A stretch of DNA of 64,000 nt, from contig DYFA01000046.1 of assembly GCA_020725425.1 (NCBI GenBank), positions 1 to 64,000 of the forward strand. The letters are read 5' to 3'. Within the stretch, counting starts at the first letter, position 1. Each line of letters starts with the position of its first letter. Below the pieces are notes generated by a model. It was given only the letters and a program-made list of their open reading frames with translations, was not told the origin of the DNA and did no database searches. Shown here piece after piece: positions 1,418 to 44,005 of this stretch. A program made the position numbers and the translations under genes. The DNA is from Aneurinibacillus sp. GTDB lineage: Bacteria > Bacillota > UBA5301 > DYFA01.

Positions 1418-2732
<1,315 letters not shown>

Positions 2733-2736
<4 letters not shown>

Positions 2737-3140
2737 AGCGCCCGGGCCTGCTAACGCCGCTGGACGGTCTGCTCATCCTGGCTCTCCTGGCAGCGGGCGC
2801 GGCCGGTCTGTGGCTGGTGCGGGGAGTCCCCGGCAATGCGGCGGCCGCCGGCCGGTGGGCCAGGGTGGAGGTGGACGGCCGGACGGTGGCCCGGGTGCCC
2901 CTCGACGGGCCGCGCCAGGAGTGGGTGCAGGGGCGCTGGGGCAAGGTGCTCCTCGAGGCTGACACCGGCCGTATCCGGGTCAAGGACGAGCAGCCGCTCT
3001 GCCCCCGGCGCATCTGCCTCTCCACCGGCTGGGTGAGCCGGCCGGGGCAGCCCATCGTCTGCGTCCCCAACCACCTGGTGGTCCGGGTGGAAGGGGGTTC
3101 TCCGGCGGGAGAGGGCAGTTACGATGCGGTCACCTGGTGA
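2733..3140 (+). CDS. NusG domain II-containing membrane-anchored protein
   Basis: The 135-residue product has a single N-terminal hydrophobic segment (about residues 9-30, [20 protein letters not shown]) followed by a soluble beta-rich domain. That domain matches the NusG_II type found in small Bacillota proteins, with Cys residues in [26 protein letters not shown]. Such proteins commonly sit next to a Gx transporter gene, as here. No enzymatic role is established; extracytoplasmic placement is inferred from the signal anchor. The start overlaps the hemL stop and the end overlaps the following gene. Confidence 0.75.
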
Positions 3141-30671: not shown

Positions 30672-30870
30672 CCGGGCTGCTCCCGGCGGTGGCTGCGGTA
30701 CGATGGAGAGTCAGGGGAACCGCATATGCAGACAAAGAGCACTGCTTGAGAAGGGCGGAGAGAAATTTTGTAAGAGCATGGAGGAATGAGGTGATTTGTT
30801 GAAGAATAACACCACAGACTGGCTATGATCGATGCTTGTCGGTGGAGACTCATCGGAAAGGAGTCTTGGT

Positions 30871-31635
30871 TTGACTCTGCAAGCTGAGCGACAACTGATC
30901 ATTACCAGCCTGATCAGGGCAAACAAGACAGTGAGCGTTGACGACCTGAGCAAGCGGTTCAATGTTTCGTTCAACACGATTCGCCGAGACCTCGATGCTT
31001 TAGAGCGTCAGGGTATCCTGCGCCGGACGCAGGGAGGCGCCATACTGGTGGAATTCGGCCAGTTTGCCCAGCCTTTTCACGTGCGCAAGGCTGAGTACTC
31101 AGAGGAGAAGGCGGCCATCGGCCGCGTGGCTGCCAGGCTGGTAACAGAAAACGACATCATCATCATTGACGCCGGTACAACTGCCCAGCAAGTAGCGAAG
31201 AACCTGGGCCACCTTCAGCATGTCACCATCCTCACCAATTCGCTCGAGGTGGCCAACGATTTGCTTGTCCACGCAAATATCACGGTCATCCCATGTGGGG
31301 GGGTACTCCGTCCTACCTCGCGTTCCATGGTCGGCATCCCGGCCGAGCAGTTCTTTTCGCAGTTTCATGCAGACAAGGCCTTTATCGGAGTAGGTGGAAT
31401 TTCGCTCGAGACAGGTCTCACCAATCCCAACATTCACGAGACCGCGGTCAAGAAGAAGATGATTGAGGCCGCCAAGGAAGTGATTGTGGTAGCAGACCAC
31501 CACAAGTTTGAACGAGTCTCGTTGAGTCCAATTGCCCCAATTACCGCAGTACACAAGATAGTCACCGATAATAAGACCCCAGCGGTCATAATCAAAAACC
31601 TTGAGAATCTGGGAATCGAAGTCATCGTAGCCTGA
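30871..31635 (+). CDS. DeoR-family transcriptional regulator
   Basis: The 254-residue product starts at TTG 30871, seven bases after AAAGGAG. The N-terminal DeoR HTH is ERQLIITSLIRANKTVSVDDLSKRFNVSFNTIRRDLDALERQGILRRTQGGAI; the C-terminal sugar-phosphate sensor domain (DeoRC) has IIIIDAGTTAQQVAKNL, VTILTNSLEVANDLL, DKAFIGVGGISLETGLTNPN and EVIVVADHHKF. DeoR-type repressors respond to sugar phosphates and sit at the head of sugar catabolic loci, which fits the kinase and aldolase downstream. Base composition drops clearly from here to about 42.4 kb. Confidence 0.93.
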   Translation: MTLQAERQLIITSLIRANKTVSVDDLSKRFNVSFNTIRRDLDALERQGILRRTQGGAILVEFGQFAQPFHVRKAEYSEEKAAIGRVAARLVTENDIIIIDAGTTAQQVAKNLGHLQHVTILTNSLEVANDLLVHANITVIPCGGVLRPTSRSMVGIPAEQFFSQFHADKAFIGVGGISLETGLTNPNIHETAVKKKMIEAAKEVIVVADHHKFERVSLSPIAPITAVHKIVTDNKTPAVIIKNLENLGIEVIVA

Positions 31636-31845
31636 TCCGCTTCGCCCTATTTTATCTCAGCATCCACCATTACCGCATCGTACTGCGAGAAGCTGGCAAT
31701 TTGGGAGACTTAGACGCTGGGAAGCGCTCCTAAGCCAGTTGCAAGTTGCGTGGCGATGGCACATGTTGAATATTTCCTTTTGATGTTTTTGTCATGTGGA
31801 GGAATTTGAGAGAGTACGACTAATACATACCACAGGCGGTTGGCA

Positions 31846-32027
31846 CCGGTCAACGGGGGTCTCCACGTGCTCCTTTGTGTGGGTGAAACGACTGCGGAGC
31901 GCGGGGAAGGTGGTCTTTCCACCCAGCAACAGAGGGGGATCATCGCCCCCTACCGCACGGCGCATGGGGTAGTCTCCGGTGGAGCGGGATGCTCTCGCTG
32001 AAACGCCCCGGTGTGTCAGTTGACTGG
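31846..32027 (+). ncRNA. candidate structured RNA upstream of the ABC transporter operon
   Basis: The 500-bp gap between the DeoR gene and the binding-protein gene holds no credible ORF. It can fold as a closed structure. A 9-bp closing helix pairs CCGGTCAAC (31846-31854) with GTTGACTGG (32019-32027, one G-U). Inside are GGGG/CCCC (31855-31858 with 32006-32009) and several short hairpins: GGTGG-TCTTT-CCACC (31909-31923), AGGGGG/CCCCCT (31933-31951) and CTCC/GGAG (31974-31984). GAAACG occurs twice, at 31885 and 32000. The shape is that of a 180-nt multi-stem RNA such as a riboswitch-like leader or a stand-alone HEARO/omega-type transposon RNA; I could not match it to a family. The flanks (31636-31845, 32028-32136) show nothing else recognisable. 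Confidence 0.4.
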
Positions 32028-32136
32028 GGGTGATATCGACAGCTTCATGCAGCGTGTCCACGGTTGCGCGGGGCGTTTGAGGTTCGCCGCGGGTCAAGTC
32101 GTTTTCCTCAATATCTAGTCAAGGAGGTCACCCCCT

Positions 32137-33192
32137 ATGCATGCAAAGATGGTACATGCTTTAACTACCTTGGTGATCGCTGTATTTCTCATGGCGATCG
32201 CCCTTTCTGCTGGTGCGGCTGCTCCCATGGTGGTGCGGGTGGGAATAGTCGGTCCAGTGCCCGACTTCTTCCATGAGCAGGTAGCAACTCCCTTGAACAT
32301 GTGGGACGACGCAGGTATCAAAATCAAATACATCGAGTTCAGTTCGGGTGCGCCCATGATTGAAGCCTTCGCTGCTGGGGAACTGGATATGGGCGTGATT
32401 GGTGGGCCCCCCGTGGTGTTCGCCAATACGCGGTTCTTCCTGCCAGTTGTAGCAGCCTGGGACGCCTCCGGAATCATCGAGATGTGGGTCAGACCCGAAG
32501 ATGCCCAACGAATCCAGGCAGTAGGCGAGGCAGCTTGGTTCAAAGGCAAGTCTATCGGGTACACACAGGGTACCACTGGTCACTTCATGCTGCAAGGATA
32601 TCTCAGGAACATCGGGTTGTCTCCGAAGGACGTCAAGCTAGTACACCTGGAACCGGGTGACCGCGAACAAGCGTTCTTGAGAGGTGACGTCAACGCGGTG
32701 CAGTCTTGGTTCCCTCCGAACAAGCTGCTCAAGAGCGCGGGAATGTCCCTGTTGACGACCGGGCGCAAGCAGAACATAACCATCCCTTCTGCGGTAGTGG
32801 CGCGGGCGGCTTTTCTCGAACGTCATCCTGACGTCGTGGTCAAGTTCTTGGACGTTCACTTCCGGCTGATTGACCTCCTGCAAAAAGACCGCGACCGGTT
32901 CCTCGACACCCAGGCCAAGTGGTTCAACACCCATGGCATAAAACTCTCGCGGGATGAACTCGCCCAGGTCCACGGCAATGTGGTGTATTACGATCTCGAA
33001 TCACAGATCGACAGCTTCAGTCCCAAGTCCGGAGAACGGCTGTCATACTTCGGCCAGGCTTTCCAGGACATGGCGGCTTTCTTCAAGGAGAACGGCGCCA
33101 TCAAAGGGAACTTGCCCGACTTTCGTCAAATCGTTGACGCCCAGCTGAAGTACCTCAAGATGCTCAAGGACGCTCGGACCAAGAACAAGTAG
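32137..33192 (+). CDS. ABC transporter substrate-binding protein, SsuA/TauA/NMT1-like
   Basis: The 351-residue product has a signal peptide (ALTTLVIAVFLMAIALSAGAAA) without a lipobox cysteine. The mature protein has the aliphatic-sulfonate/taurine/thiamin-precursor binding fold: VRVGIVGPVPDFF, AFAAGELDMGVIGGPPVVFA, FKGKSIGYTQGTTGHFMLQGYLRNIGLSPKDVKLVHLEP, and GDVNAVQSWFPP. Relatives bind sulfonates, nitrate or pyrimidine precursors; the ligand here is not predictable. ATG 32137 follows AAGGAGG. It heads the operon with the permease and ATPase. A non-lipidated binding protein is unusual in a monoderm. Confidence 0.88.
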   Translation: MHAKMVHALTTLVIAVFLMAIALSAGAAAPMVVRVGIVGPVPDFFHEQVATPLNMWDDAGIKIKYIEFSSGAPMIEAFAAGELDMGVIGGPPVVFANTRFFLPVVAAWDASGIIEMWVRPEDAQRIQAVGEAAWFKGKSIGYTQGTTGHFMLQGYLRNIGLSPKDVKLVHLEPGDREQAFLRGDVNAVQSWFPPNKLLKSAGMSLLTTGRKQNITIPSAVVARAAFLERHPDVVVKFLDVHFRLIDLLQKDRDRFLDTQAKWFNTHGIKLSRDELAQVHGNVVYYDLESQIDSFSPKSGERLSYFGQAFQDMAAFFKENGAIKGNLPDFRQIVDAQLKYLKMLKDARTKNK

Positions 33193-33298
33193 GCCCTGCC
33201 ATGCTAGTGTGCGGTGCCTGGCGGGGCGGCGGTCCCACCCGCCGCCCCGCTGGGCTTCGGCCATGAGACATCTTCGACAAAGGGAGGAGTTCCTCTCC

Positions 33299-34093
33299 GT
33301 GTTACGTGCACATGGACAGGCTCGTAGGCTGTGGCTTATCAGGATTGGCTCCCTAGTCCTGTTCTTTGGACTTTGGCAACTAATTGCCATGGCGAAGCTG
33401 GTGCCGGAATACTTTCTTCCTGCGCCGAGCCAGATCTTTGCCCGCTACGCAACTTTACTGCGAGAGCCGATCTACGGTGAGAATACACTGCTGCAGCACT
33501 TTCTCGTCAGCTTGCGCCGGGTGATGATGGGGTTTGCGCTGGGCGTCGTAACCGGCGTTCCCCTCGGTATTCTGATGGGCTGGAACAAGAGAGTGGAGGC
33601 GGCGGTTGACCCTCTGTTCGAGCTTTTCAGGCCGATTCCACCGATTGCCTGGATACCCCTGGTGATTCTGTGGCTCGGCATTGGGGAGACGCCGAAGATC
33701 TTCCTCATCTGGATCGGCGCCTTCATCCCGTTGGTCATCAACTCCTACACCGGAGTCAAGCAGACACCGGAGATTCTGCTCAGGGCCGCACGGACGATGG
33801 GAGCCAAGGACAAAGACTTGCTCCTCGAAGTCGCTATTCCCTCGAGCGTACCTTACCTGTTGGCAGGACTGCGCGTGGCCCTCGGCAACTGCTGGGCGAT
33901 TCTGGTTGCTTCTGAACTCGTCGCCGCGCAGAGCGGGTTGGGGTACATGATGAATATCGCCCGTCGCTATTTGGATACGACCGGAGTGATTACCGGTATG
34001 CTGACCATCGGTGTTGTAGGATGGCTCCTGGATTCCGTTTTGCGCGTTGTGCAGAGCAAGATTCCCTGGAACGAGGTGGGGTCCAAACGATGA
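33299..34093 (+). CDS. ABC transporter permease, SsuC/TauC-like
   Basis: The 264-residue product (GTG 33299 behind GGGAGGAG; an earlier ATG at 33263 is possible) has about six membrane helices: IGSLVLFFGLWQLIA, FALGVVTGVPLGILMGW, then the EAA loop region ILLRAARTMGAKDKDLLLEVAIPSSVPYLLAGLRVALGNCWAILVASELV. The P-I-P-P-I-A-W-I-P-L segment is typical of sulfonate/nitrate/taurine permeases. It overlaps the ATPase gene by four bases. Confidence 0.92.
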   Translation: MLRAHGQARRLWLIRIGSLVLFFGLWQLIAMAKLVPEYFLPAPSQIFARYATLLREPIYGENTLLQHFLVSLRRVMMGFALGVVTGVPLGILMGWNKRVEAAVDPLFELFRPIPPIAWIPLVILWLGIGETPKIFLIWIGAFIPLVINSYTGVKQTPEILLRAARTMGAKDKDLLLEVAIPSSVPYLLAGLRVALGNCWAILVASELVAAQSGLGYMMNIARRYLDTTGVITGMLTIGVVGWLLDSVLRVVQSKIPWNEVGSKR

Positions 34094-34905
34094 CGCCGAG
34101 GATTTGCTTCGAAACTGTGCACGTTTCCTTCACGACCGCTTCCGGTAGTAGGCTGGAAGCAGTTCATGACGTATCGCTCGACATCGCCGACAAGGAGTTT
34201 ACTGTCCTTGTGGGGCCCTCCGGTTGTGGCAAGAGCACCCTGTTGAATGTTGCCGCAGGGCTTGTAGTCCCGGACTGTGGAAGGGTTCTGATTGATGGTA
34301 GACCTGTAACCGGTCCCGAGGCCAACTGCGGCTATGTTTTTCAGGAGTTTGCCCTGTTCCCCTGGAAAACAGTGCGGGCCAACATCGAGTTTGGCCTGAA
34401 AATGCACGGGGTTCCCAAGGCGGAGCGAGAGAAGATTGCCGACCGGTACATCGAACTGGTTGGTCTTCGTGAGTTTGCCTCCGCCTATCCGGGACAGCTG
34501 TCCGGTGGCATGAAGCAGAGAGTGGCGATCGCCCGGGCCTACGCCTATAACCCTGATATCCTGCTGATGGACGAGCCGTTTGGCGCCCTCGATGCCCTCA
34601 CGCGGACGATTATGCAGGAAGAGCTGATTGATCTCTGGCGAAGAGAGCAAAAGACGGTACTCTTTGTAACTCATGGCGTGGACGAGGCAATTTATCTGGC
34701 GGACAAGGTCGTGGTGCTGACGGCGCGGCCGGCACGCATAAAGGCCGTCTTCGAGCTTACGGCTGATCACTTGCTGCCGGAGGACCGGTATAACCCTCAC
34801 ATCAAGTCTTCCTCGGAGTTCCGTGCTCTCTCGGACCAAATATGGGAGTTGGTCCGGGAAGAGGGAAGGGGAAGCGAGACTCGGGCGGCAGTGCACCGCG
34901 GCTAG
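34090..34905 (+). CDS. ABC transporter ATP-binding protein, SsuB/TauB-like
   Basis: The 271-residue ATPase has Walker A GPSGCGKST, Q-loop FQEFALFPWKTV, signature LSGGMKQRVAIARA, Walker B ILLMDEPFGALD and the H-loop FVTHGVDEAIYLADKVVVLTARPARI, all of the nitrate/sulfonate/taurine importer type. It energises the permease encoded just upstream. Confidence 0.94.
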   Translation: MTPRICFETVHVSFTTASGSRLEAVHDVSLDIADKEFTVLVGPSGCGKSTLLNVAAGLVVPDCGRVLIDGRPVTGPEANCGYVFQEFALFPWKTVRANIEFGLKMHGVPKAEREKIADRYIELVGLREFASAYPGQLSGGMKQRVAIARAYAYNPDILLMDEPFGALDALTRTIMQEELIDLWRREQKTVLFVTHGVDEAIYLADKVVVLTARPARIKAVFELTADHLLPEDRYNPHIKSSSEFRALSDQIWELVREEGRGSETRAAVHRG

Positions 34906-34966
34906 AGGTCGCCGGGTCACCAGCAGCGGAGAAGCCAGACCTGCAGGGATAACGGAGGATACGGAA

Positions 34967-37444
34967 ATGGTGGATGCGCCGATTAGCTTTCCGCAGTTGA
35001 CCAGTCCCCGAACCACGGAGAGGACCCAACGTCTGTTGAACTTCATCAGAAAGAAAGAACCAAGCATCTGCTTTGAACGAATCCGATACGTGACGGAGGC
35101 CTATCGCCGACACGAGGCGCTCCCAAACATTCTGCGGCGGGCGAAAGCCGTCGAACACATATTGGCCAATATGTCTCTCTACCTGTTGGAGGACAGCCTG
35201 TTGGCTGGAAATCAGGCGAGTGAGCCCCGTTCGGCGCCGTTGTTCCCGGAGTTCGACGTCGTGTGGATCGAAGAGGAGATCCTCAACGGGAAGCCGATGC
35301 GCCCGGACGAGCGACCGGCGGACCGTTTTCAAGTCAAGCTGGACGCCGAAACCCGTAAGGAGTTGCGGGAGATCGTCTCCTGGTGGAGGGGGAAGACCCA
35401 TGCTGCCAGGGTGTACAGTTATCTCCCGCCGGAAGCTTTGAAAGCCCAGGAGGAAGTGGGTACCAATAATATCTGGGGCTACATGGAAGGTGGAGTAGGA
35501 CACTACCTTCCGGATCATCCGTGGCTGCTTCGGAACGGTGTCGAACGGGTAATCGAGCTGTGCAACAGGAAACTCGGCGAACTCACGTGGACCGACCCTG
35601 ATTACTTCGATAAACGTTGTTTTTATGAAGCCATTATCATCGGCGCTCAAGCCATGATAGGCTTCGCGGCCAGATACGCCCAGCTGAGTCGGTCTCTGGC
35701 CAAGCAAGAGCGAGACCCGGTGCGACAGCGGGAGCTCTTGGAGCTGGCGAACATCTGCGAAAGAGTACCGGCGAAACCCCCTCGCACATTCCACGAAGCC
35801 CTGCAGTTCATATACTTCGTTCACGTAGTGCTTCACATTGAGGACAGCGGCTATGGCATTTCCGTGGGAAGATTGGATCAGATCTTATGGGATCACTATG
35901 TCAATGACCTTAAGGCTGGGCGTCTTACCTCCAATCGCGCTCTGGAGTTGATTGAACATTTCTACGTTGGCTTGTTCAGCCTGTTGAAGGTTAAGAGCTG
36001 GCGCCAGACGATGTATACGCGTGGCTACCCGATGTTTCAGAACTTGACGATTGGGGGCCAAGACCCGGTTACTAGGACTGATGCAACGAACGACCTCTCC
36101 TACTTGCTCCTCGCAGCCACTGCTGATACGCGATTGGTCCAGCCTTCGCTCACTGCGCGTCTTCACAGCAGATCGCCTGAGGAATACAAACGCAAGGTCG
36201 CGGAGGTGATCCGCCTGGGGATTGGCTTGCCTGCCGTGTTCAACGATGAAGCTTACGTTCCAGCCCTGCTCAATCGGGGTTACGATCTGGTAGACGCCCT
36301 GAACTACGCCATTGTGGGCTGCGCGGAACCTGGAGTCTCCGGCTTGTTGGGTGGCAGAACAGGAGGGTCCTTCTTTAACCAGCCGAAAGTCCTTGAGTTG
36401 GCTCTGTACGGTGGCAGGGATCCCCGGACGGGAGTCTGCCTTCTCGAGAATTCGGGCGGGAGGGATCTTTCGACTTTTTCGTCCTACGCAGAAGTCTGGG
36501 AGGCCTATCTTCATCAGGCGGACTTCTACCTGAAAGTCCATGCGGTATTGGAAAACGCCGTCGACAAGTCATATGCCGAACTCATCTCCAATCCGCTGGA
36601 GACTTTTCTCTCTTGTCCTCAAACAGCGCTTGATCGTGCGCGAACCCCGCGACAGGGAGGGGCCAAGTACGATTTCACTGGCCAGCAGACTCTCGGAACA
36701 GCAAACGTCGGTAACAGTTTGTACGCGGTCAAGAGACTGGTGTTCGACGAGAAGCGATTGACCGGTGCGCAACTGCTCCATGCCCTGAGGACTGATTTTC
36801 GAGATACAAGCACTAACCCTTCTGGCCCTCAGATACGCGAGATGTGCAAGGCGGTTCCCAAGTACGGAAACGACGTAGATGAGGTCGACTTCATCTGTCG
36901 TGATGTGTTGGCCTATACGTGCAACAGGCTGACCAGTTTCAAGAACACGAGATACGGCAAGGGGCCAATCGGCGGGATAATCCAGGCCTCTACTACCTCA
37001 GTGACTGGCAATGTCCCCTTCGGGGAGGTATGTGGTGCTTTGCCTGACGGCCGTTTGGCCGGCATGCCTCTGGCGGATGGTCAGTCGCCAATGCGAGGTA
37101 CAGACGTAAAGGGCCCCACTGCTGCCGTGAAGTCGGTAGCCAGATTGAACAATCTGCTGTTGTCAGGCGGTAGCCTGTACAACCTCAAGTTCCTTCCGGA
37201 ACATCTTCGGAGTGAGGAGGGGCTTCGCCGGTTTCTCGCCCTTATCGAATACTACTTCTCTCTGGGCGGAATGCAAATGCAGTTCAATGTGGTCAGCAAG
37301 GAGACCTTGCGCGAGGCGCAGAAACACCCCGAGGCCTATGCCGACCTCCTCGTAAGAGTGGCCGGCTACGTCGCCTATTTCGTCACACTCGACCGCAAGG
37401 TACAGGAAGATATCATTGAGCGAACGGAGGAGCAACTGGTCTAG
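34967..37444 (+). CDS. glycyl radical enzyme (GCxEP eliminase/dehydratase class)
   Basis: The 825-residue product is a full-length pyruvate-formate-lyase-superfamily protein. The glycyl radical motif RVAGYVAYF puts the radical on Gly800; the thiyl cysteine is Cys452 in ALNYAIVGCAEPG, with the base Glu454 (C-x-E). True PFL has two adjacent cysteines, so this is not PFL. C-x-E enzymes include diol/glycerol dehydratases, choline and sulfonate (isethionate, DHPS) C-N or C-S lyases, and hydroxyproline dehydratase. The substrate cannot be fixed from sequence; the SsuABC-like transporter beside it makes a sulfonate plausible. ATG follows AACGGAGG. Oxygen-sensitive and activated by the next gene product. 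Confidence 0.93.
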   Translation: MVDAPISFPQLTSPRTTERTQRLLNFIRKKEPSICFERIRYVTEAYRRHEALPNILRRAKAVEHILANMSLYLLEDSLLAGNQASEPRSAPLFPEFDVVWIEEEILNGKPMRPDERPADRFQVKLDAETRKELREIVSWWRGKTHAARVYSYLPPEALKAQEEVGTNNIWGYMEGGVGHYLPDHPWLLRNGVERVIELCNRKLGELTWTDPDYFDKRCFYEAIIIGAQAMIGFAARYAQLSRSLAKQERDPVRQRELLELANICERVPAKPPRTFHEALQFIYFVHVVLHIEDSGYGISVGRLDQILWDHYVNDLKAGRLTSNRALELIEHFYVGLFSLLKVKSWRQTMYTRGYPMFQNLTIGGQDPVTRTDATNDLSYLLLAATADTRLVQPSLTARLHSRSPEEYKRKVAEVIRLGIGLPAVFNDEAYVPALLNRGYDLVDALNYAIVGCAEPGVSGLLGGRTGGSFFNQPKVLELALYGGRDPRTGVCLLENSGGRDLSTFSSYAEVWEAYLHQADFYLKVHAVLENAVDKSYAELISNPLETFLSCPQTALDRARTPRQGGAKYDFTGQQTLGTANVGNSLYAVKRLVFDEKRLTGAQLLHALRTDFRDTSTNPSGPQIREMCKAVPKYGNDVDEVDFICRDVLAYTCNRLTSFKNTRYGKGPIGGIIQASTTSVTGNVPFGEVCGALPDGRLAGMPLADGQSPMRGTDVKGPTAAVKSVARLNNLLLSGGSLYNLKFLPEHLRSEEGLRRFLALIEYYFSLGGMQMQFNVVSKETLREAQKHPEAYADLLVRVAGYVAYFVTLDRKVQEDIIERTEEQLV

Positions 37445-38403
37445 TGCTTGTCTGCGATCCCGGTGTGGCCGGAACAGTAGTGGAAATCCAGCGCTTTGCG
37501 GTCCACGATGGCCCAGGCGTCAGGACGCTGGTGTTTCTTAAGGGATGCCCTCTCAGGTGCAAATGGTGCTGTAACCCCGAGACCTGGGAGAGCTTTCCGG
37601 AGATCACCTGTTTCCCTCAACGCTGCATCAGTTGCGGTGAATGCATAAGGAGGTGTCCTCACAAGGCCATCAAGACCGTGGAGGGTTGTCTAAAAACGGA
37701 CAGGGAGCTTTGCCGTGCCAACTGCTATGGGAAGACGTGGCCTTATCCCTGCATATCGGCATGCTATTCCGGCGCTCGTCAAGTCTGCGGCTGCCTCCTG
37801 CGGGTTGAAGACGTAGTCGAAGAAGTTTGTCGAGATCAAGCTCTATACAAGCGAACCGGCGGAGGGGTAACGCTGTCCGGGGGGGAACCAAGCCTTCAGC
37901 CGCAGTTTTGTCTGGCCCTACTGACGGAATTGCGGAGGCGATGGGTCCATGCCGCAATGGAGACGTGCGGAGCGGGGCTATGGCGAGACTATGAGAGCCT
38001 GCTGGAGTTGCTGGATCTGGTTTTCTTAGATTTGAAGCATATAGATTCCACACGGCATCAGTACCTTACCGGGACAGGCAACGAGAGGATCCTGGACAAC
38101 GCAGTCAGAATCGCCGAGCATGCGAAGGACAAGAACATCGAGTTGGTGGTTCGTATCCCGGTGGTTCCCGGGCTGACCGATTCTCCTGCTAATATCAGAG
38201 GGCTTGCCTCCTTCGTAGCGCGAGAGATGAAGGGCGCTGCAGGGATAGAGTTGATGCCATATCACAAGTTGGGCAGGGGCAAGTACCTGAGCCTTGAACG
38301 CGAGTATGAGTTGAGCAACTTGCAGCCGCCCTCCAACGAGCACTTGGACAGTCTCAAAGAGATCGTCAGTTCCTGTGGGGTCAAAGTGATCGAGTACCGG
38401 TGA
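37444..38403 (+). CDS. glycyl radical enzyme activase (radical SAM)
   Basis: The 319-residue product starts at GTG 37444 inside the stop of the enzyme gene (TAGTG), so the pair is translationally coupled. The radical SAM cluster motif is CX3CX2C at Cys35, Cys39 and Cys42 (GCPLRCKWCCNPE). An inserted ferredoxin-like region follows (CISCGECIRRCPHKA, CRANC..PCISAC), as in activases of GCxEP enzymes. TGGGVTLSGGEPSLQP is the usual SAM-binding GGE segment. It makes the glycyl radical on its partner with SAM and an electron. Confidence 0.94.
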   Translation: MLVCDPGVAGTVVEIQRFAVHDGPGVRTLVFLKGCPLRCKWCCNPETWESFPEITCFPQRCISCGECIRRCPHKAIKTVEGCLKTDRELCRANCYGKTWPYPCISACYSGARQVCGCLLRVEDVVEEVCRDQALYKRTGGGVTLSGGEPSLQPQFCLALLTELRRRWVHAAMETCGAGLWRDYESLLELLDLVFLDLKHIDSTRHQYLTGTGNERILDNAVRIAEHAKDKNIELVVRIPVVPGLTDSPANIRGLASFVAREMKGAAGIELMPYHKLGRGKYLSLEREYELSNLQPPSNEHLDSLKEIVSSCGVKVIEYR

Positions 38404-38427
38404 AGCGGCGTCGAGGTCCGCTTTTTT
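38403..38427 (+). terminator. intrinsic-terminator-like hairpin between activase and isomerase genes
   Basis: AAGCGG (38403-38408) pairs with CCGCTT (38418-38423) around a 9-nt loop, and the T-run extends to 38427 (six T in total, the first two in the stem). The stem is short, so partial termination inside the operon is more likely than a full stop; it could set the enzyme/isomerase ratio. Confidence 0.4.
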
Positions 38428-38459
38428 GGGAGACACAATGCGACTGGAGGAAGTTCTCT

Positions 38460-39839
38460 ATGAATACCACTGTCGACAGGGTTAAGGTCGGCTTTGCCAC
38501 CTTGGCGCAACCGACTTTTGATGTAGGCTGGTCCCAAGACATGATGAAGAGATCCATTCGCATCCTGAAGAAGCTCGGGGTGGAAGTAGTAAGTCTGGAT
38601 CGTCCGCTGATGAGCGAAGCTGAAGCATGGGAACTCAGAAGGCAGTTCGAAAAACAGCAGATAGATGTTCTTCTTGTACAAAGCGGGGCGTTTGCCTGGG
38701 GCGGCTTGGTTATGATTCTGGCTGGCGAGGGTCAAATCCCGTGCATCCTGTGGGCTACGCCCGAGCCTCCGTTTGACGGAGGACCAATACGCAGCAACTC
38801 ACTCTGCGCTGTGATCATGAACAACAGCAACTTGCGGAAGGCGGGGAGTAGTCCGGGATTCCTGTTCGGTGCTCCCGAACAGGTCGAAGCAGAGTTGGGC
38901 TCACTGGTTAAGGCTGCTCGGGCAGCCGCACGGTTGAAACGTTCCAAGATAGGAATCGTTGGTCACAGAGTCCCCGGATTCTACAGCTCGGGGTTCAACG
39001 AAATCCGACTACAGGCGTCGTTGGGGCCACAAGCCCACCACCTCGACTTGTCCACCGTGCTCTCGAGAATGCGACGGGTTTCGGAAGACATGGTCAACCA
39101 GGTCGTTGAAAGCGATCTTCCAGTGATCTCCGGCATGATTGCCGGCAAGGAGGACGGTCTCCGGGGAAGCGTACGAGCGTATTTGGCCCTGAAGGAGCTG
39201 GCACGCGAACATAGCCTTGATGCCCTGGCAGTGAAATGCTGGCCTGAGTTCCCCACAGAGAACGGAATGAGCGTCTGTCTGTCTTTGTCTCTGCTCAACG
39301 ACTCAGGGATTCCGACTGCCTGTGAAGCTGACGTTTATGGGGCTACAACTATGCTGGTCTTGCTGGAACTTACGAGCGAGCCGATGTTCTTCAATGACCT
39401 GATACAGGTGGATGAGGAGACGAACCAAGCTTTGTTCTGGCACTGTGGGGCTGCGCCCCGTAAGCTTCGGAGCCCTTCCTCGCTGTGTGAGGTCCGCACT
39501 CACGCCATGAGGGGAACCGCGGCGACGATAGACTTCAGCCTTAAGCCAGGAAGGGTGACGATCGCCAGGATCTCCGAGGATGGTCCCGGCTGGAAGATCC
39601 TGGCCGTCGCAGGTGAGGCAGTGGAAACCCCCCTCTTATTGCGAGGGAACACGCTCTCTGTCAGGATGGACAACCGCGTAAAGGCTCTCGTGCGTACCAT
39701 TCTGGAGGAGGGGATCGAACACCACTTTGTCTTGGCATATGGAGACGTCACCAAGGAAATCCAGTGGCTGAGCAAGCTTATGAACATAAGGAACATTGAA
39801 GTGGCGACACCCAATGTCGATAAGAAGGTGGCAAAATGA
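38460..39839 (+). CDS. L-fucose/L-arabinose isomerase-like protein
   Basis: The 459-residue product shares the FucI/AraA-like architecture (COG2407 type). It has an N-terminal Rossmann-like pair of domains (VQSGAFAWGGLVMILAGEGQIPCILWATPEPP) and then the metal-site region KCWPEFPTENGMSVCLSLSLLNDSGIPTACEADVYGATTMLVLLEL, with FWHCGAAPRKL near the C-terminus. Glu, Asp and His in these segments are the usual Mn ligands. It would interconvert an aldose and a ketose; kinase and aldolase genes follow. ATG 38460, nine bases after GGAGG, is preferred to an upstream in-frame start at 38400. Confidence 0.8.
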   Translation: MNTTVDRVKVGFATLAQPTFDVGWSQDMMKRSIRILKKLGVEVVSLDRPLMSEAEAWELRRQFEKQQIDVLLVQSGAFAWGGLVMILAGEGQIPCILWATPEPPFDGGPIRSNSLCAVIMNNSNLRKAGSSPGFLFGAPEQVEAELGSLVKAARAAARLKRSKIGIVGHRVPGFYSSGFNEIRLQASLGPQAHHLDLSTVLSRMRRVSEDMVNQVVESDLPVISGMIAGKEDGLRGSVRAYLALKELAREHSLDALAVKCWPEFPTENGMSVCLSLSLLNDSGIPTACEADVYGATTMLVLLELTSEPMFFNDLIQVDEETNQALFWHCGAAPRKLRSPSSLCEVRTHAMRGTAATIDFSLKPGRVTIARISEDGPGWKILAVAGEAVETPLLLRGNTLSVRMDNRVKALVRTILEEGIEHHFVLAYGDVTKEIQWLSKLMNIRNIEVATPNVDKKVAK

Positions 39840-40756
39840 TTGTACCCTCCCTGAAAGATCTCTACAACAGTCTTCCTGCGGGCCACTACGCCGTGGGCGC
39901 TTTCAATGTTCATAACATGGAGTATGTGCAGGCGGTGATAAAGGCGGCGGAAGCAGAGAACGCGCCGGTCATCTTAATGATCGGGGAGGCCATGATCCCA
40001 TTTGCTGGTCTGGATATGTTGGCCACGATTTGCCTGTTTGCAGCGGAACAGACCCCTGTGCCGGTGGCCGTCGCTCTGGATCATGGCCACTCCTTCGCCA
40101 ACCTCGAACGCTGCGTAGAACTGGGGATATCGATAATGTTCGATGGTTCCCATCTGCCCCTGGAGGAGAATATCCGACTAACAAGAAAGTTTGCCAGGAT
40201 GGCGCATGCGGCAGGGGTGTCCATCGAAGGTGAGTTAGGCAGTGTCGGTGGCGCCGAGGACGGCGAGGCCGGGAAAGAGGTTAACTTGACCGACCCCCGA
40301 ACTGCGGCGCGTTTCGTCGAGGAGACCGGTGTGGACGCGCTGGCGGTGGCCATCGGGAACTGCCATGGATTTTACTCCGGGACGCCGAGCCTTGACTTGG
40401 TGCGGCTAGAAAGGATCCGAGAGCTGGTCCATATTCCGCTAGTCCTGCATGGCGGTTCGGACTTGCCGGAGGCCCTGTCCCGCGAGGCCATTGCCCGGGG
40501 CATCCGTAAGTTCAATGTGGGGACTGACTTAAAGTACGCCTTCTCCAGTACCCTAAAGCGGCTCCTTACTCAAGAACCCATGCCCTACCAGCCTCCTGCC
40601 TTGTTGGGGCCAGCCCGTGACGCGGTGACTGAGGTGGTGCGCCATAAGATCCGTCTCTTTGGCTCAACCGGCCTGGCTGGGCAGTTTCATGGGCCATTAG
40701 CGCCCGCAGAGGGCGCAGTGCCGTCGAGGACCGTCGGGCGACCCCGGAAATCTTAG
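39836..40756 (+). CDS. class II (Zn) ketose-phosphate/bisphosphate aldolase
   Basis: The 306-residue FbaA/GatY/KbaY-family aldolase has AVGAFNVHNMEYVQAV, the Zn ligand region ALDHGHS (Asp82, His83), GELGSVGG, NCHGFY (His177) and VLHGGSD (His205), then the phosphate loop KFNVGTDL. These enzymes cleave ketose-1-phosphates or 1,6-bisphosphates to DHAP and an aldehyde. HGGSD instead of the usual HGGSG is a small deviation at the active-site loop. Start overlaps the isomerase stop (ATGA). Real substrate unknown. Confidence 0.88.
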   Translation: MIVPSLKDLYNSLPAGHYAVGAFNVHNMEYVQAVIKAAEAENAPVILMIGEAMIPFAGLDMLATICLFAAEQTPVPVAVALDHGHSFANLERCVELGISIMFDGSHLPLEENIRLTRKFARMAHAAGVSIEGELGSVGGAEDGEAGKEVNLTDPRTAARFVEETGVDALAVAIGNCHGFYSGTPSLDLVRLERIRELVHIPLVLHGGSDLPEALSREAIARGIRKFNVGTDLKYAFSSTLKRLLTQEPMPYQPPALLGPARDAVTEVVRHKIRLFGSTGLAGQFHGPLAPAEGAVPSRTVGRPRKS

Positions 40757-40821
40757 GCCGCGGGTCAATCCCGCGAGTTAGGCCAGATGGTCGAGGATTC
40801 GACAGGGATGGGAATGCAACC

Positions 40822-42363
40822 GTGTCGCTTCTAATGGGTGTCGACGTAGGTACAACCAACTGGAAAGCTGCGGTTTTTGACGAAGTCGGGCACCTTGTTG
40901 CGCTGGCCAAGACGAGTGCAGTCACCCACTATGACGAGCGGGGCTGGGCGAGCTATGACCCAGGCGAATTGTGGCGCCTAGTGGCCGACGTGATCGCAGC
41001 CGCGGTGCGTCAAACGGGTTCGGCTGGGGGGATAGCCGCGGTTACAGTGGCGAGCATGGCGGAAAGCGTAGTGCCGCTCGATCGCTCGGGTGAACCCGTC
41101 TCCCAGGTCATCGCCTGGTTCGACACCAGGTCCCTACCTCAGGCACAACAACTCGAGCGCCTCCTGGGGCGTGGGAAACTGTACGCCCTTACCGGTTTGG
41201 ACCCCAACCCCATTTTCTCCGTCCCCAAGATCATGTGGTATCGCGACCATGAACCCGAGGTTTACGCCCACACCAAGAAGTGGCTGAGCATCGCTGATTA
41301 CGTGAACTACAAATTGACTGGAGAAACGGTCACCGACTACTCCCTCGCCTCCCGCACCATGGCCCTGAATCTGGAAACAGGTACCTGGTCGGGGGAGATT
41401 TTATCGGCGGCAGGTCTTCAGGATACGAGCCTTCCCGAGATCCGACCTAGCGGAACATTAGTCGGCACCGTCACAGACGCTGCGGCAGCGGAAACCAGCC
41501 TCTTGCCCGGCACACCCGTCGTCCTTGGCGGGCACGACCATCTCTGCGGCTCATTGGGTGCCGGGGTTTTGCTTGACCACGGTGTCCTAGACTCCTCTGG
41601 CACGGCCGAGAGCCTCATCGCCCTCTCGGAGCCCGGGGCGCCGATCCCGAAGGAATTCAGGGGCTTTCGCCTCGGCCGCTACCTCGACCCGCGCCGCTAC
41701 GTCACCTGGGGGGGCATTATCAGCTCGGGCTCGTCGATCGACTGGGCGCTGAACCAGTTTGCCTCTCTGACTGGATGGGGTATGGCGGGGAACCAGGGGT
41801 GCCCAGACTATTCCGAGGTTATGGCCGCCGCCGCTGAGACGCCTCCCGGCGCCAGGGGGCTCTTATACCTGCCGCATCTGCGCGGGTGTGGCGCTCCCCA
41901 CTGGGAGCCGCGCGCCCGCGGGGCACTCATCGGCCTGCGCTCCACGCATACTCAGCCGGAACTGGTTAGAGCAGTCGTCGAAGGACTCTGTTTTGAGGTC
42001 AAGCTCATCCTTGACCTGATGGAGAGAGTCGCCGGGCGCAAGATCCGAACGCTGAACACGGTCGGGGGTGGGGCGCGAAACGCTTTCTGGCAACAGACCA
42101 AGGCGGACGTCACGGGCCGGACCGTCACGGTTCCCGAGATCGAGGAGGCAACGCCCCTGGGTGCTGCTCTCTTGGCTGGTCTCGGGGCCGGCGTGTATGG
42201 CGACATGGTCGAAGCTTCCAGGTTCACCTACCGGGTTCGACACCGTTTCGAGCCAGTGGCGGAACGGCAGGAGGTTTACAGAGCGCTCTTCCACCTTTAC
42301 AAACAAGCCTACCCGGCGCTTATAGACTTGAACATCGGCTTGCACGACCTAGCGGGCGAGTAG
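40822..42363 (+). CDS. FGGY-family carbohydrate kinase (xylulokinase-like)
   Basis: The 513-residue product has both FGGY ASKHA halves: MGVDVGTTNWKAAVFD, VTVASMAESVVPLD, IAWFDTRS, the GGHDHLCGSLGAGVL loop, GTAESL, and the C-terminal LNTVGGGARNAFWQQTKADVTGRTVTVPEIEEATPLGAALLAG. It phosphorylates a ketose or sugar alcohol and would supply the aldolase. GTG 40822 behind a weak GGGATGGG; ATG 40834 is an alternative. It is the last gene of the island operon. Confidence 0.9.
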   Translation: MSLLMGVDVGTTNWKAAVFDEVGHLVALAKTSAVTHYDERGWASYDPGELWRLVADVIAAAVRQTGSAGGIAAVTVASMAESVVPLDRSGEPVSQVIAWFDTRSLPQAQQLERLLGRGKLYALTGLDPNPIFSVPKIMWYRDHEPEVYAHTKKWLSIADYVNYKLTGETVTDYSLASRTMALNLETGTWSGEILSAAGLQDTSLPEIRPSGTLVGTVTDAAAAETSLLPGTPVVLGGHDHLCGSLGAGVLLDHGVLDSSGTAESLIALSEPGAPIPKEFRGFRLGRYLDPRRYVTWGGIISSGSSIDWALNQFASLTGWGMAGNQGCPDYSEVMAAAAETPPGARGLLYLPHLRGCGAPHWEPRARGALIGLRSTHTQPELVRAVVEGLCFEVKLILDLMERVAGRKIRTLNTVGGGARNAFWQQTKADVTGRTVTVPEIEEATPLGAALLAGLGAGVYGDMVEASRFTYRVRHRFEPVAERQEVYRALFHLYKQAYPALIDLNIGLHDLAGE

Positions 42364-42382
42364 GTGAAGCAGGACTGTCTGT

Positions 42383-42890
42383 TTACTGCTTCTCCCCTGC
42401 TGTTAGCGCTTGCCGCGAGAACACCTCTGCTTCTGTTAGAATCGTCCGGGCCAGCGCGGAATTATGGAACCCGCTGCTGTTCTCGGCGGCCAGCCAGTCG
42501 ACCCGGAGCTGGGCCTGGCGGTGAAGCGAGCGGGCTTCGGCCAAGGCGGAAGTAGTACTCGACGTGGCATTGGGCGCAGACAAGGCTCCGGAGTTTCCAG
42601 AGAGGCAGGTCCTCGGCCGGCTCGCCCCGGCGCTTCAGGGCGTCGACTAAGGCAGGCCGGGAGAGGCGCAGCTTCCAGGTGGCGGGATCGTGGCAGTCGC
42701 TGCACCCGATGGGGTACTTCATTTCACCCTTGAGACTGTCAAAGGGCTTGGCGTAGAAGGCCAGGCCATCCTTGGCGAGCTGGGTCGGAACATTGGTGCT
42801 CTTACAGCTCCAGCAGGAGGCGCTGGGCTTCTTCCGTTTGATCTGGACGACGTCTTCCAGGGAATAGACGTGTCCCCGCTCCTCGTCCTC
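42383..42890 (-). pseudogene. nrfA: remnant of ammonia-forming cytochrome c nitrite reductase
   Basis: Reading the minus strand from 42890 gives ERGHVYSLEDVV, the NrfA first-heme motif CWSCK, then KPFDSLKGEMKYPIGCSDCHD, LRLSRPALVDALKR and VCAQCHVEYYF, all in one frame. In the next frame it goes straight to HRQAQLRVDWLAAENSSGFHN, the NrfA C-terminal helix. The 150 or so residues expected in between are missing and the frame changes at the junction. The N-terminus (before a TAG at 42891-42893) is also missing. The gene is dead by truncation, internal deletion and frameshift. It fills the 600-bp gap after the FGGY kinase; nothing else is seen there. Confidence 0.88.
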
Positions 42891-42973
42891 CTATTGTTGC
42901 TATTTAAATACCCATTATTGTCCGACAGGAATCATTGAGAATATCCGCCGGCGCCGGCACATAACCTCTCGAA

Positions 42974-44005
42974 GTGCGACTTTGGGAGGAGGCGCTGGTC
43001 TTGCCGCTGTTGGTCCTGCTTGTTTCGCTTTGCCTGGCTGCACTGGCACCCGGGAGGGTGTGCGCGGCACCCGGGGAACGGGTCGCCGGAGTGGCCGGAG
43101 CGGCCTACGCTGTACTGGACGTGGACCGCGGGGTGTTCCTCTTCGAGCACCGGGCGGACGAGGTGCGGGAGCCAGCCAGCCTGACCAAGGTCATGACGGC
43201 CCTCGTGGCGGTGGAGGAGGCACCGCTGGCGAAGGTAGGGCGGGTCACGGCGGTGGCAGCCGCGACACCGGGGAACCGGGTAGGGCTGGTCGCGGGGGAG
43301 CGACTCGAAATGTGGGAGCTCCTGTATGGAGCGCTGTTCCGTTCGGGGAACGACGCCGCCCGGGCGCTGGCGGAGACGGTAGCCGGGTCGGAGGAGGCGT
43401 TCGTGGCGAGGATGAACGCCAAGGCCAGATCGCTGGGTCTGCAGAACACTTTCTTCCAGAACCCGCACGGCCTCCCGGCTCCCCGCCACCGCTCCACGGC
43501 CCGGGAGCTGGCCCTCCTCGGCCGTGCGGCGCTGCAGAACCCGGTGGTGGCGAAGATCGTGGGCCGGACCGAACGAGTCCTGCCATGGGGAGGTCGGGGA
43601 CGTCGCCTCCAAAACATCAACCGCTTCCTCCAGCTCTATCCCGGGGCCACCGGGATGAAGACGGGGTACACCTCGAGCGCCGGGTACTGCCTCATGGCGA
43701 GCGCGCGGCGGGGCGGCCGCCACCTCCTGGCGGTGGTCCTGGGTTCCACCTCGAGCTGGCAACGTTACCAGGACGGCATGCGGCTGCTCGACGCCGGTTT
43801 CGCCCGGTGCCAGGCGGTTGCCGCAGCGAACTGCTGGTACGTGGTGCAACCGGGCGACACCCTGTACGACCTGGCCCGGCGGCTGGGACTGACGGTCGAG
43901 GCCCTGGTGAAGGCGAACCCCGGGATCGACCCGGATCGGATCCGGGTGGGAGACCGCCTGCGCCTGCCAAAGGGGAACTGTAAGGAAGCAGGAAATTCCA
44001 AATAA
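42974..44005 (+). CDS. D-alanyl-D-alanine carboxypeptidase (DacF-like) with C-terminal LysM
   Basis: The 343-residue product has a hydrophobic signal segment, a serine D,D-carboxypeptidase domain with SLTK (Ser69/Lys72), SGN (Ser124-Asn126) and KTG (229-231), and a LysM domain at about 288-332 (YVVQPGDTLYDLARRLGLTVEALVKANPGIDPDRIRVGDRLRLP). DacF-type enzymes trim peptidoglycan stem peptides, often in sporulation; LysM replaces the usual C-terminal anchor. GTG 42974 gives a positively charged signal n-region but lacks a ribosome site; TTG 43001 has GGGAGGAGG eight bases upstream and may be the true start. Confidence 0.92.
   Translation: MRLWEEALVLPLLVLLVSLCLAALAPGRVCAAPGERVAGVAGAAYAVLDVDRGVFLFEHRADEVREPASLTKVMTALVAVEEAPLAKVGRVTAVAAATPGNRVGLVAGERLEMWELLYGALFRSGNDAARALAETVAGSEEAFVARMNAKARSLGLQNTFFQNPHGLPAPRHRSTARELALLGRAALQNPVVAKIVGRTERVLPWGGRGRRLQNINRFLQLYPGATGMKTGYTSSAGYCLMASARRGGRHLLAVVLGSTSSWQRYQDGMRLLDAGFARCQAVAAANCWYVVQPGDTLYDLARRLGLTVEALVKANPGIDPDRIRVGDRLRLPKGNCKEAGNSK

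Follow-up and report, generated by a model that had tools for sequence, protein, structure and literature searches.

We analysed a window of 64,000 nucleotides from Aneurinibacillus sp. (contig DYFA01000046.1 of assembly GCA_020725425.1, positions 1 to 64,000), which contains an island of nine genes, all on the plus strand between positions 30832 and 42363. The island brings together an oxygen-sensitive glycyl radical enzyme (GRE) and its activase, an importer and enzymes of sugar metabolism. The open reading frames and their Pfam domains agreed with those named in an initial annotation, which had been made from the sequence alone. The features are as follows.

30832–31635, plus strand: DeoR-family repressor, 267 aa (PF00455 and PF08220)
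31636–32136: intergenic region of 501 bp separating the regulator from the operon, presumably the promoter/operator; a GGAGG lies ahead of the importer gene
32137–33192, plus strand: SsuA/TauA-like periplasmic binding protein, 351 aa (SsuA_fam 144.3 bits, TauA 74.8)
33209–34093, plus strand: TauC/SsuC-like permease, 294 aa as listed (PF00528; TauC below its cut-off)
34021–34905, plus strand: TauB/SsuB-like ATPase, 294 aa as listed (PF00005; TauB below its cut-off)
34967–37444, plus strand: GRE, fused form, 825 aa (PF02901 and PF01228)
37444–38403, plus strand: GRE activase, radical SAM with an extra 4Fe-4S domain, 319 aa (PF04055 and PF00037)
38400–39839, plus strand: FucI/AraA-like ketol isomerase, 479 aa (PF02952)
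39836–40756, plus strand: class II fructose/tagatose-bisphosphate-type aldolase, 306 aa (PF01116)
40822–42363, plus strand: FGGY carbohydrate kinase, 513 aa (PF00370 and PF02782)

The overlapping starts reported in the initial annotation were confirmed, with overlaps of 1 base between GRE and activase, 4 bases between activase and isomerase, and 4 bases between isomerase and aldolase. The most likely start of the GRE is ATG 34967, which is preceded by GGAGG; the ATPase gene probably starts at the internal ATG 34090, and the isomerase is likely to start at an internal ATG near 38460. A PFL-like barrel, an active-site Cys, a C-terminal Gly-radical motif and the radical-SAM activase place the enzyme in the GRE superfamily, and Cys452, Glu454 and Gly800 fall, in the 825-aa numbering, exactly where they had been annotated. 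The activase exceeded the cut-off of the PFLE_PFLC subfamily profile (325 bits, cut-off 174), as did the aldolase that of cbbA (265.7 bits, cut-off 215.6), and the kinase scored 311 bits with the XylB profile, under the cut-off of 380. A tRNA called by ARAGORN at 41015 lies within the kinase gene, its anticodon is not clear, and it was discarded as a false positive.

The GC content of the island is 0.55–0.62, as compared with 0.65–0.73 in the flanks, and the GC3 values of its genes agree with this difference (0.63–0.73, versus 0.83–0.94 for flanking genes), in line with the lower GC noted in the initial annotation. The genome of the window (2.38 Mb, 72 contigs), the sole member of its family in the comparison, was compared with six other genomes of the class. 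In three of these the island is missing, and hisIE is followed by dacF and/or the FBPase gene: the distance from the end of hisIE to dacF is 308 bases in G002, the order in G005 is hisIE, a dacF-like piece, FBPase and pcrA, and FBPase follows about 1.1 kb after hisIE in G006. Because the flanks are contiguous in these relatives, the gene order demonstrates an insertion at the hisIE/dacF junction, and not an effect of composition alone. No direct repeats of at least 10 bases were found at the ends of the island, and no relatives were found among viral contigs. Between the right edge of the island and dacF (42380–42990, minus strand) are frame-broken, decayed fragments of a multihaem cytochrome (NrfA-like) with CxxCH motifs.

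To place the GRE among known enzymes, relatives were collected by scanning a single genome for each species. Seventeen GREs showed about 49–58% identity to the window GRE, and the next matches dropped to about 30%; the clade was recovered again, along with an intermediate group at 43–46%, from 399 genomes sampled in the phylum. The hosts are Lachnospiraceae, Moorella, termite-gut Breznakiella and anaerobic-digester lineages. In a maximum likelihood tree of 44 rows, the window GRE and the 17 relatives formed one clade of 18 members with support of 100/100. The sister of this clade was a group with E. coli YbiW (99/99), outside which the window GRE falls, and the 1,2-propanediol/glycerol dehydratases (PDH/GDH), PflD, CutC and HypD were on separate branches. 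Clustering of the GRE inside a characterised group, which the initial annotation had named as a result that would count against its proposal, was not observed: the tree sets the clade, itself uncharacterised, outside every characterised group. Profile scores pointed the same way. The NCBIfam equivalogs HpsG and HpfG gave 550 and 545 bits against a cut-off of 1000, CutC gave 507 against 1050 and HypD 493 against 1100, and the cut-offs of the decarboxylase equivalogs were likewise missed widely.

The clade retains both catalytic residues, Cys and Glu, as well as the His of the GxGH motif (H179 in the window GRE), and the window enzyme has these in common with the PDH/GDH group, together with the fold. 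It differs from them at H281, S282 and D447, which we take to be the diol ligands of glycerol dehydratase: the equivalent positions are Y296, G297 and G466, so that the diol ligands are absent, and across the clade they are replaced by Tyr/Ala/Gln-Gly and Gly. In addition, the clade has Arg464 in the loop that follows the active-site motif, where the aligned residue of the YbiW group is also an Arg. An AlphaFold2 model of the window GRE (pLDDT 87.9, pTM 0.90) gave its best E-values in structural comparison with the PDH/GDH structures 5i2g, 9rco and 1r8w. The lowest root-mean-square deviation (rmsd) of the model among the top PDB matches was to YbiW with 1,5-anhydroglucitol-6-phosphate (8id7; TMq 0.94, rmsd 1.7 Å). 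YbiW, PflD and the window GRE are all C-x-E enzymes, and the YbiW group is the closest characterised clade; the identity to E. coli YbiW and PflD is, however, only 35–38%. The two E. coli enzymes, lyases of 1,5-anhydroglucitol- and 1,5-anhydromannitol-6-phosphate in anhydroglycolysis, open the rings of anhydrohexitol phosphates to give 1-deoxyfructose-6-phosphate (PMC12441222). This ring opening is a C–O cleavage beside a CH(OH) group. The window has an isomerase and a class II aldolase in place of the fructose-6-phosphate aldolase and the phosphotransferase system of those pathways, and most members of its GRE clade, unlike YbiW and PflD, are split.

The splitting is a more surprising result than the pathway. 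In 13 of the 17 relatives (L004, L005, L008, L009, L011, L012, L013, L015, L016, L017, L018, L019 and L020), the GRE frame ends just ahead of the glycyl-radical domain. The next gene encodes that domain, in about 66–86 codons as called, in 12 of the 13, and in the remaining one (L016) the contig runs out within the radical domain. The large genes end in TAA, TAG or TGA, the gaps to the small genes are 12–153 bases, the small genes lie in any of the three frames, and AGGAGG-like sites precede most of them as their own ribosome-binding sites. The small protein of L013 has Gly_radical as its sole Pfam domain. When mapped on the model of the window GRE, the split point falls in the loop preceding the last helical segment (helix 750–765). 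The fused forms are the window GRE, L006, L007, L010 and L014; since L014 is nested in a split subclade, fusion or splitting occurred more than once. A selenocysteine reading of the stops was ruled out by the three stop types, the position of some small genes in another frame and their own ribosome-binding sites in most cases. An assembly error was also ruled out, because the same site is used across phyla, including isolates and the complete Breznakiella genome (L018). From their gene structure, the split relatives are apparently two-subunit GREs. The literature searched, which took in few subscription journals, contained no account of a split GRE. The small genes, of about 80 aa, are comparable with the stand-alone glycyl-radical domains of the GrcA/YfiD 'spare part' proteins. 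GrcA, however, rescues an intact pyruvate formate-lyase, whereas the large gene of the split relatives lacks this domain altogether and is directly followed by the small gene.

The activase and a sugar importer of the RbsABC type are the constant partners of the clade, and a two-component system is often present as well; aldehyde or alcohol enzymes were not found as partners at the loci of the relatives. Two Moorella loci (L005 and L013), whose GREs are 60% identical to each other, have in common a DeoR regulator, a ROK glucokinase-type kinase, a class II aldolase, a phosphoglucose/phosphomannose isomerase and a PfkB kinase. The window DeoR is 42% identical to the regulators of these loci and the window aldolase 46–48% identical to their aldolases. 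The exact gene set of the window had no second case in the two scans, and conservation elsewhere, the complete lack of which the initial annotation had also named as counting against its proposal, is therefore limited to this equivalent set of DeoR, sugar kinase, aldolase, isomerase, second kinase and GRE in two Moorella. Related loci were also noted outside the clade. At L142 (4127–10540) and L144 (6673–13242), a PflD-like and a YbiW-like GRE flank an FGGY kinase 40–41% like that of the window, in operons that also hold an RbsABC importer, a ROK kinase and a ribulose-phosphate-epimerase-type gene. A YbiW-group GRE on a Chloroflexota plasmid (L166; CP069395, 13679–32087) lies within an allose-type operon (alsK, rpiB, alsB, alsC, ROK), a context that suggests anhydro- or allo-sugar substrates for the YbiW group. 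The genome of the window has a second, distant GRE (L138; contig 44, 66000–80000; 6258–8474, minus strand) beside a class III aminotransferase, an activase and a sugar-type ABC importer, possibly an amino-compound GRE operon. It also has, on contig 2 (L140; about 2588–2992, minus strand), a C-terminal radical domain of a GRE without the barrel, which is probably the remnant of a decayed gene.

The importer had been annotated as SsuABC-like. Its lean towards sulfonate-type systems was upheld, but the ATPase and the permease are closer to TauB (242 bits, cut-off 357) and TauC (214 bits, cut-off 342), and with the SsuA family as best profile of the binding protein (cut-off 163.5), all three components remained under the curated cut-offs. 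The best PDB matches of the binding protein were taurine- and sulfonate-binding proteins. The FucI/AraA-like character of the isomerase holds at the level of PF02952 and can be refined, as its sole NCBIfam match was the sulfoquinovose isomerase SftI (NF048012; 272 bits, cut-off 700). The best PDB match of the aldolase was 8q58, which, like 8q57, we believe to be a SqiA structure. At 23 diagnostic columns separating these two sequences from fructose- and tagatose-bisphosphate aldolases, the window aldolase matches the presumed SqiAs at 2 and the bisphosphate aldolases at 13, and its identification as SqiA was rejected. An SftI-like isomerase elsewhere (L162, 7274–9683; 444 bits) is divergent from an adjoining class II aldolase 44% identical to that of the window; that locus has sugar ABC importer genes and no GRE.

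We propose, tentatively and at somewhat less than even confidence in the explanation as a whole, that the operon was horizontally acquired and serves the catabolism of an imported sugar derivative, with the GRE catalysing the first step. The radical-SAM partner would activate the GRE, after which hydrogen abstraction by the Cys452 thiyl radical at a CH(OH) carbon would be followed by breakage of the adjacent C–O bond, freeing an aldose. The logic would be that of YbiW, but the leaving group would be a sugar or a sugar-like alcohol. The FucI-like isomerase would convert the aldose to a ketose, the FGGY kinase would phosphorylate the ketose at C1, and the class II aldolase would split the product into dihydroxyacetone phosphate (DHAP) and an aldehyde; the DeoR protein may act as repressor at the presumed operator. 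We prefer this explanation because the clade is sister to YbiW and separate from PDH/GDH, PflD, CutC and HypD, because YbiW gave the lowest-rmsd superposition, with the diol ligands replaced and Arg464 shared, and because the clade partners are a sugar importer and an activase and two divergent Moorella GREs share a hexose kit, whose DeoR and aldolase are homologous to those of the window. The composition and the insertion of the island likewise favour a foreign origin. The main argument for the GRE acting first is the comparison of the Moorella and window kits. An aldose would be phosphorylated, isomerised and phosphorylated again in Moorella, and in the window a free sugar would be isomerised, with a single kinase ahead of aldol cleavage; the two together imply that the GRE product, if it feeds these enzymes, would have to be an aldose. 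Direct phosphorylation at C1 without an earlier C6 kinase suggests a sugar blocked at C6 (6-deoxy or 6-sulfo), and a 6-sulfo sugar would also fit the TauABC-like importer.

Several observations weigh against this proposal. No member of the clade has a known substrate, and the combination of isomerase, aldolase, kinase and GRE was seen in the window only. Arg464 could just as well point to a substrate with a phosphate group, as for YbiW. Most relatives have no sugar kinase or isomerase nearby, so that the case for an aldose product comes mainly from the window and the two loci of Moorella. As to a sulfo-sugar, SftI-like proteins of unrelated operons score 290–444 bits, above the window isomerase, and the aldolase is unlike the presumed SqiA structures. 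A more specific form of the proposal, in which the clade frees whole sugars from glycosyl-polyol conjugates by C–O cleavage in the polyol part and carries the radical mostly on a separate, exchangeable subunit of about 80 residues, is speculative and on balance unlikely. The conjugates would be, for example, glycosylglycerols, or sulfoquinovosylglycerol in the window; nothing relevant on GREs acting on glycosylglycerols was found in the literature searched.

The initial annotation had placed the GRE last: isomerase, kinase and aldolase would act first, the C3 aldehyde would be reduced elsewhere to 1,2-propanediol or 2,3-dihydroxypropane-1-sulfonate (DHPS), and the GRE would dehydrate or desulfonate the product. 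The C-x-E motif is compatible with this order, HpfG/HpsG are the best equivalog profiles for the GRE, though below their cut-off, and HpfG is present in some sulfo-TAL and sulfo-EMP clusters (PMC9594981). We nevertheless consider it improbable, as the HpfG/HpsG scores reach little more than half of the cut-off, the GRE lies outside the PDH/GDH clade and has lost the diol ligands, and the operon contains no reductase or aldehyde-oxidising gene, nor do the loci of the relatives. That interpretation is accordingly only partly supported. Its one-operon anaerobic sugar catabolism with DHAP-type aldol cleavage is supported, while the GRE most likely acts at the start, on the imported compound. A closer parallel to YbiW, in which the FGGY kinase would phosphorylate an imported anhydro-sugar before the GRE opens the 1,5-anhydrohexitol phosphate to a 1-deoxyketose phosphate, is rather unlikely. 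The sister position, the common Arg464 and the kinases between the paired GREs of L142 and L144, beside an RbsABC importer, speak for it. A 1-deoxyketose, however, cannot yield DHAP through a class II aldolase of this type; YbiW loci (L150 and L172) pair with fructose-6-phosphate aldolase instead, the aldose-ketose isomerase would be left without a role, and the window clade is set apart from the YbiW group with full support.

A sulfosugar substrate is possible, weakly suggested by the TauABC/SsuABC-type importer and by an isomerase of the family containing SftI; the sulfo-sugar idea of the initial annotation keeps this much, and loses ground through the missed cut-offs and the aldolase. The GRE could then cleave sulfoquinovosylglycerol to sulfoquinovose (SQ), or the C–S bond of SQ (C5-H/C6-SO3) to give sulfite and a 6-deoxy-5-ketosugar, and we give this scheme little credence. 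No GH31 was found in the genome, and a canonical sulfoquinovosidase is therefore absent, which would leave room for such a GRE. On the other hand, neutral-sugar importers beside the relatives count against C–S chemistry for the clade, and no DsrAB was seen in the genome. Sulfite respiration was rejected on the latter ground, as the only NIR_SIR protein found in the genome is a small one of 253 aa (L174; contig 44, 5917–6678). Compared with sulfo-EMP2 (SqvD/SftI isomerase, sulfofructose kinase and SqiA aldolase), the window has the same logical succession of isomerase (PF02952), kinase and class II aldolase, and also a sulfonate-type importer. It differs in the isomerase and aldolase as described, in an FGGY kinase instead of a PfkB-type one, in the lack of a sulfoquinovosidase and in a GRE inside the operon. 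The L-fucose and L-rhamnose pathways likewise use an isomerase, an FGGY kinase and an aldolase to give DHAP and a short aldehyde, but the window aldolase is of the F_bP_aldolase family (PF01116) and not of the FucA/RhaD family, and the kinase exceeds neither the fuculokinase nor the rhamnulokinase cut-off. Finally, the importer, the GRE pair and the sugar kit might be separate modules on one acquired island, as the exact set is unmatched in the genomes scanned. The overlap of the reading frames from GRE through aldolase and the equivalent set found with divergent GREs in two species of Moorella make such a chance neighbourhood very improbable.

No described gene set matched the operon, in agreement with the initial annotation, and the pathway is an undescribed combination around an uncharacterised GRE clade. 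To our knowledge, each GRE clade characterised so far has brought a distinct reaction, important in carbon or sulfur flow in gut and sediment. The present clade, which has no assigned substrate, adjoins enzymes for which radical-based ether cleavage has recently been demonstrated, and if its GRE indeed releases a sugar, this would be a non-hydrolytic way of breaking a sugar conjugate. The separate radical-domain gene would allow direct study of docking, activation and replacement after oxygen damage, which is hard in one-chain GREs.

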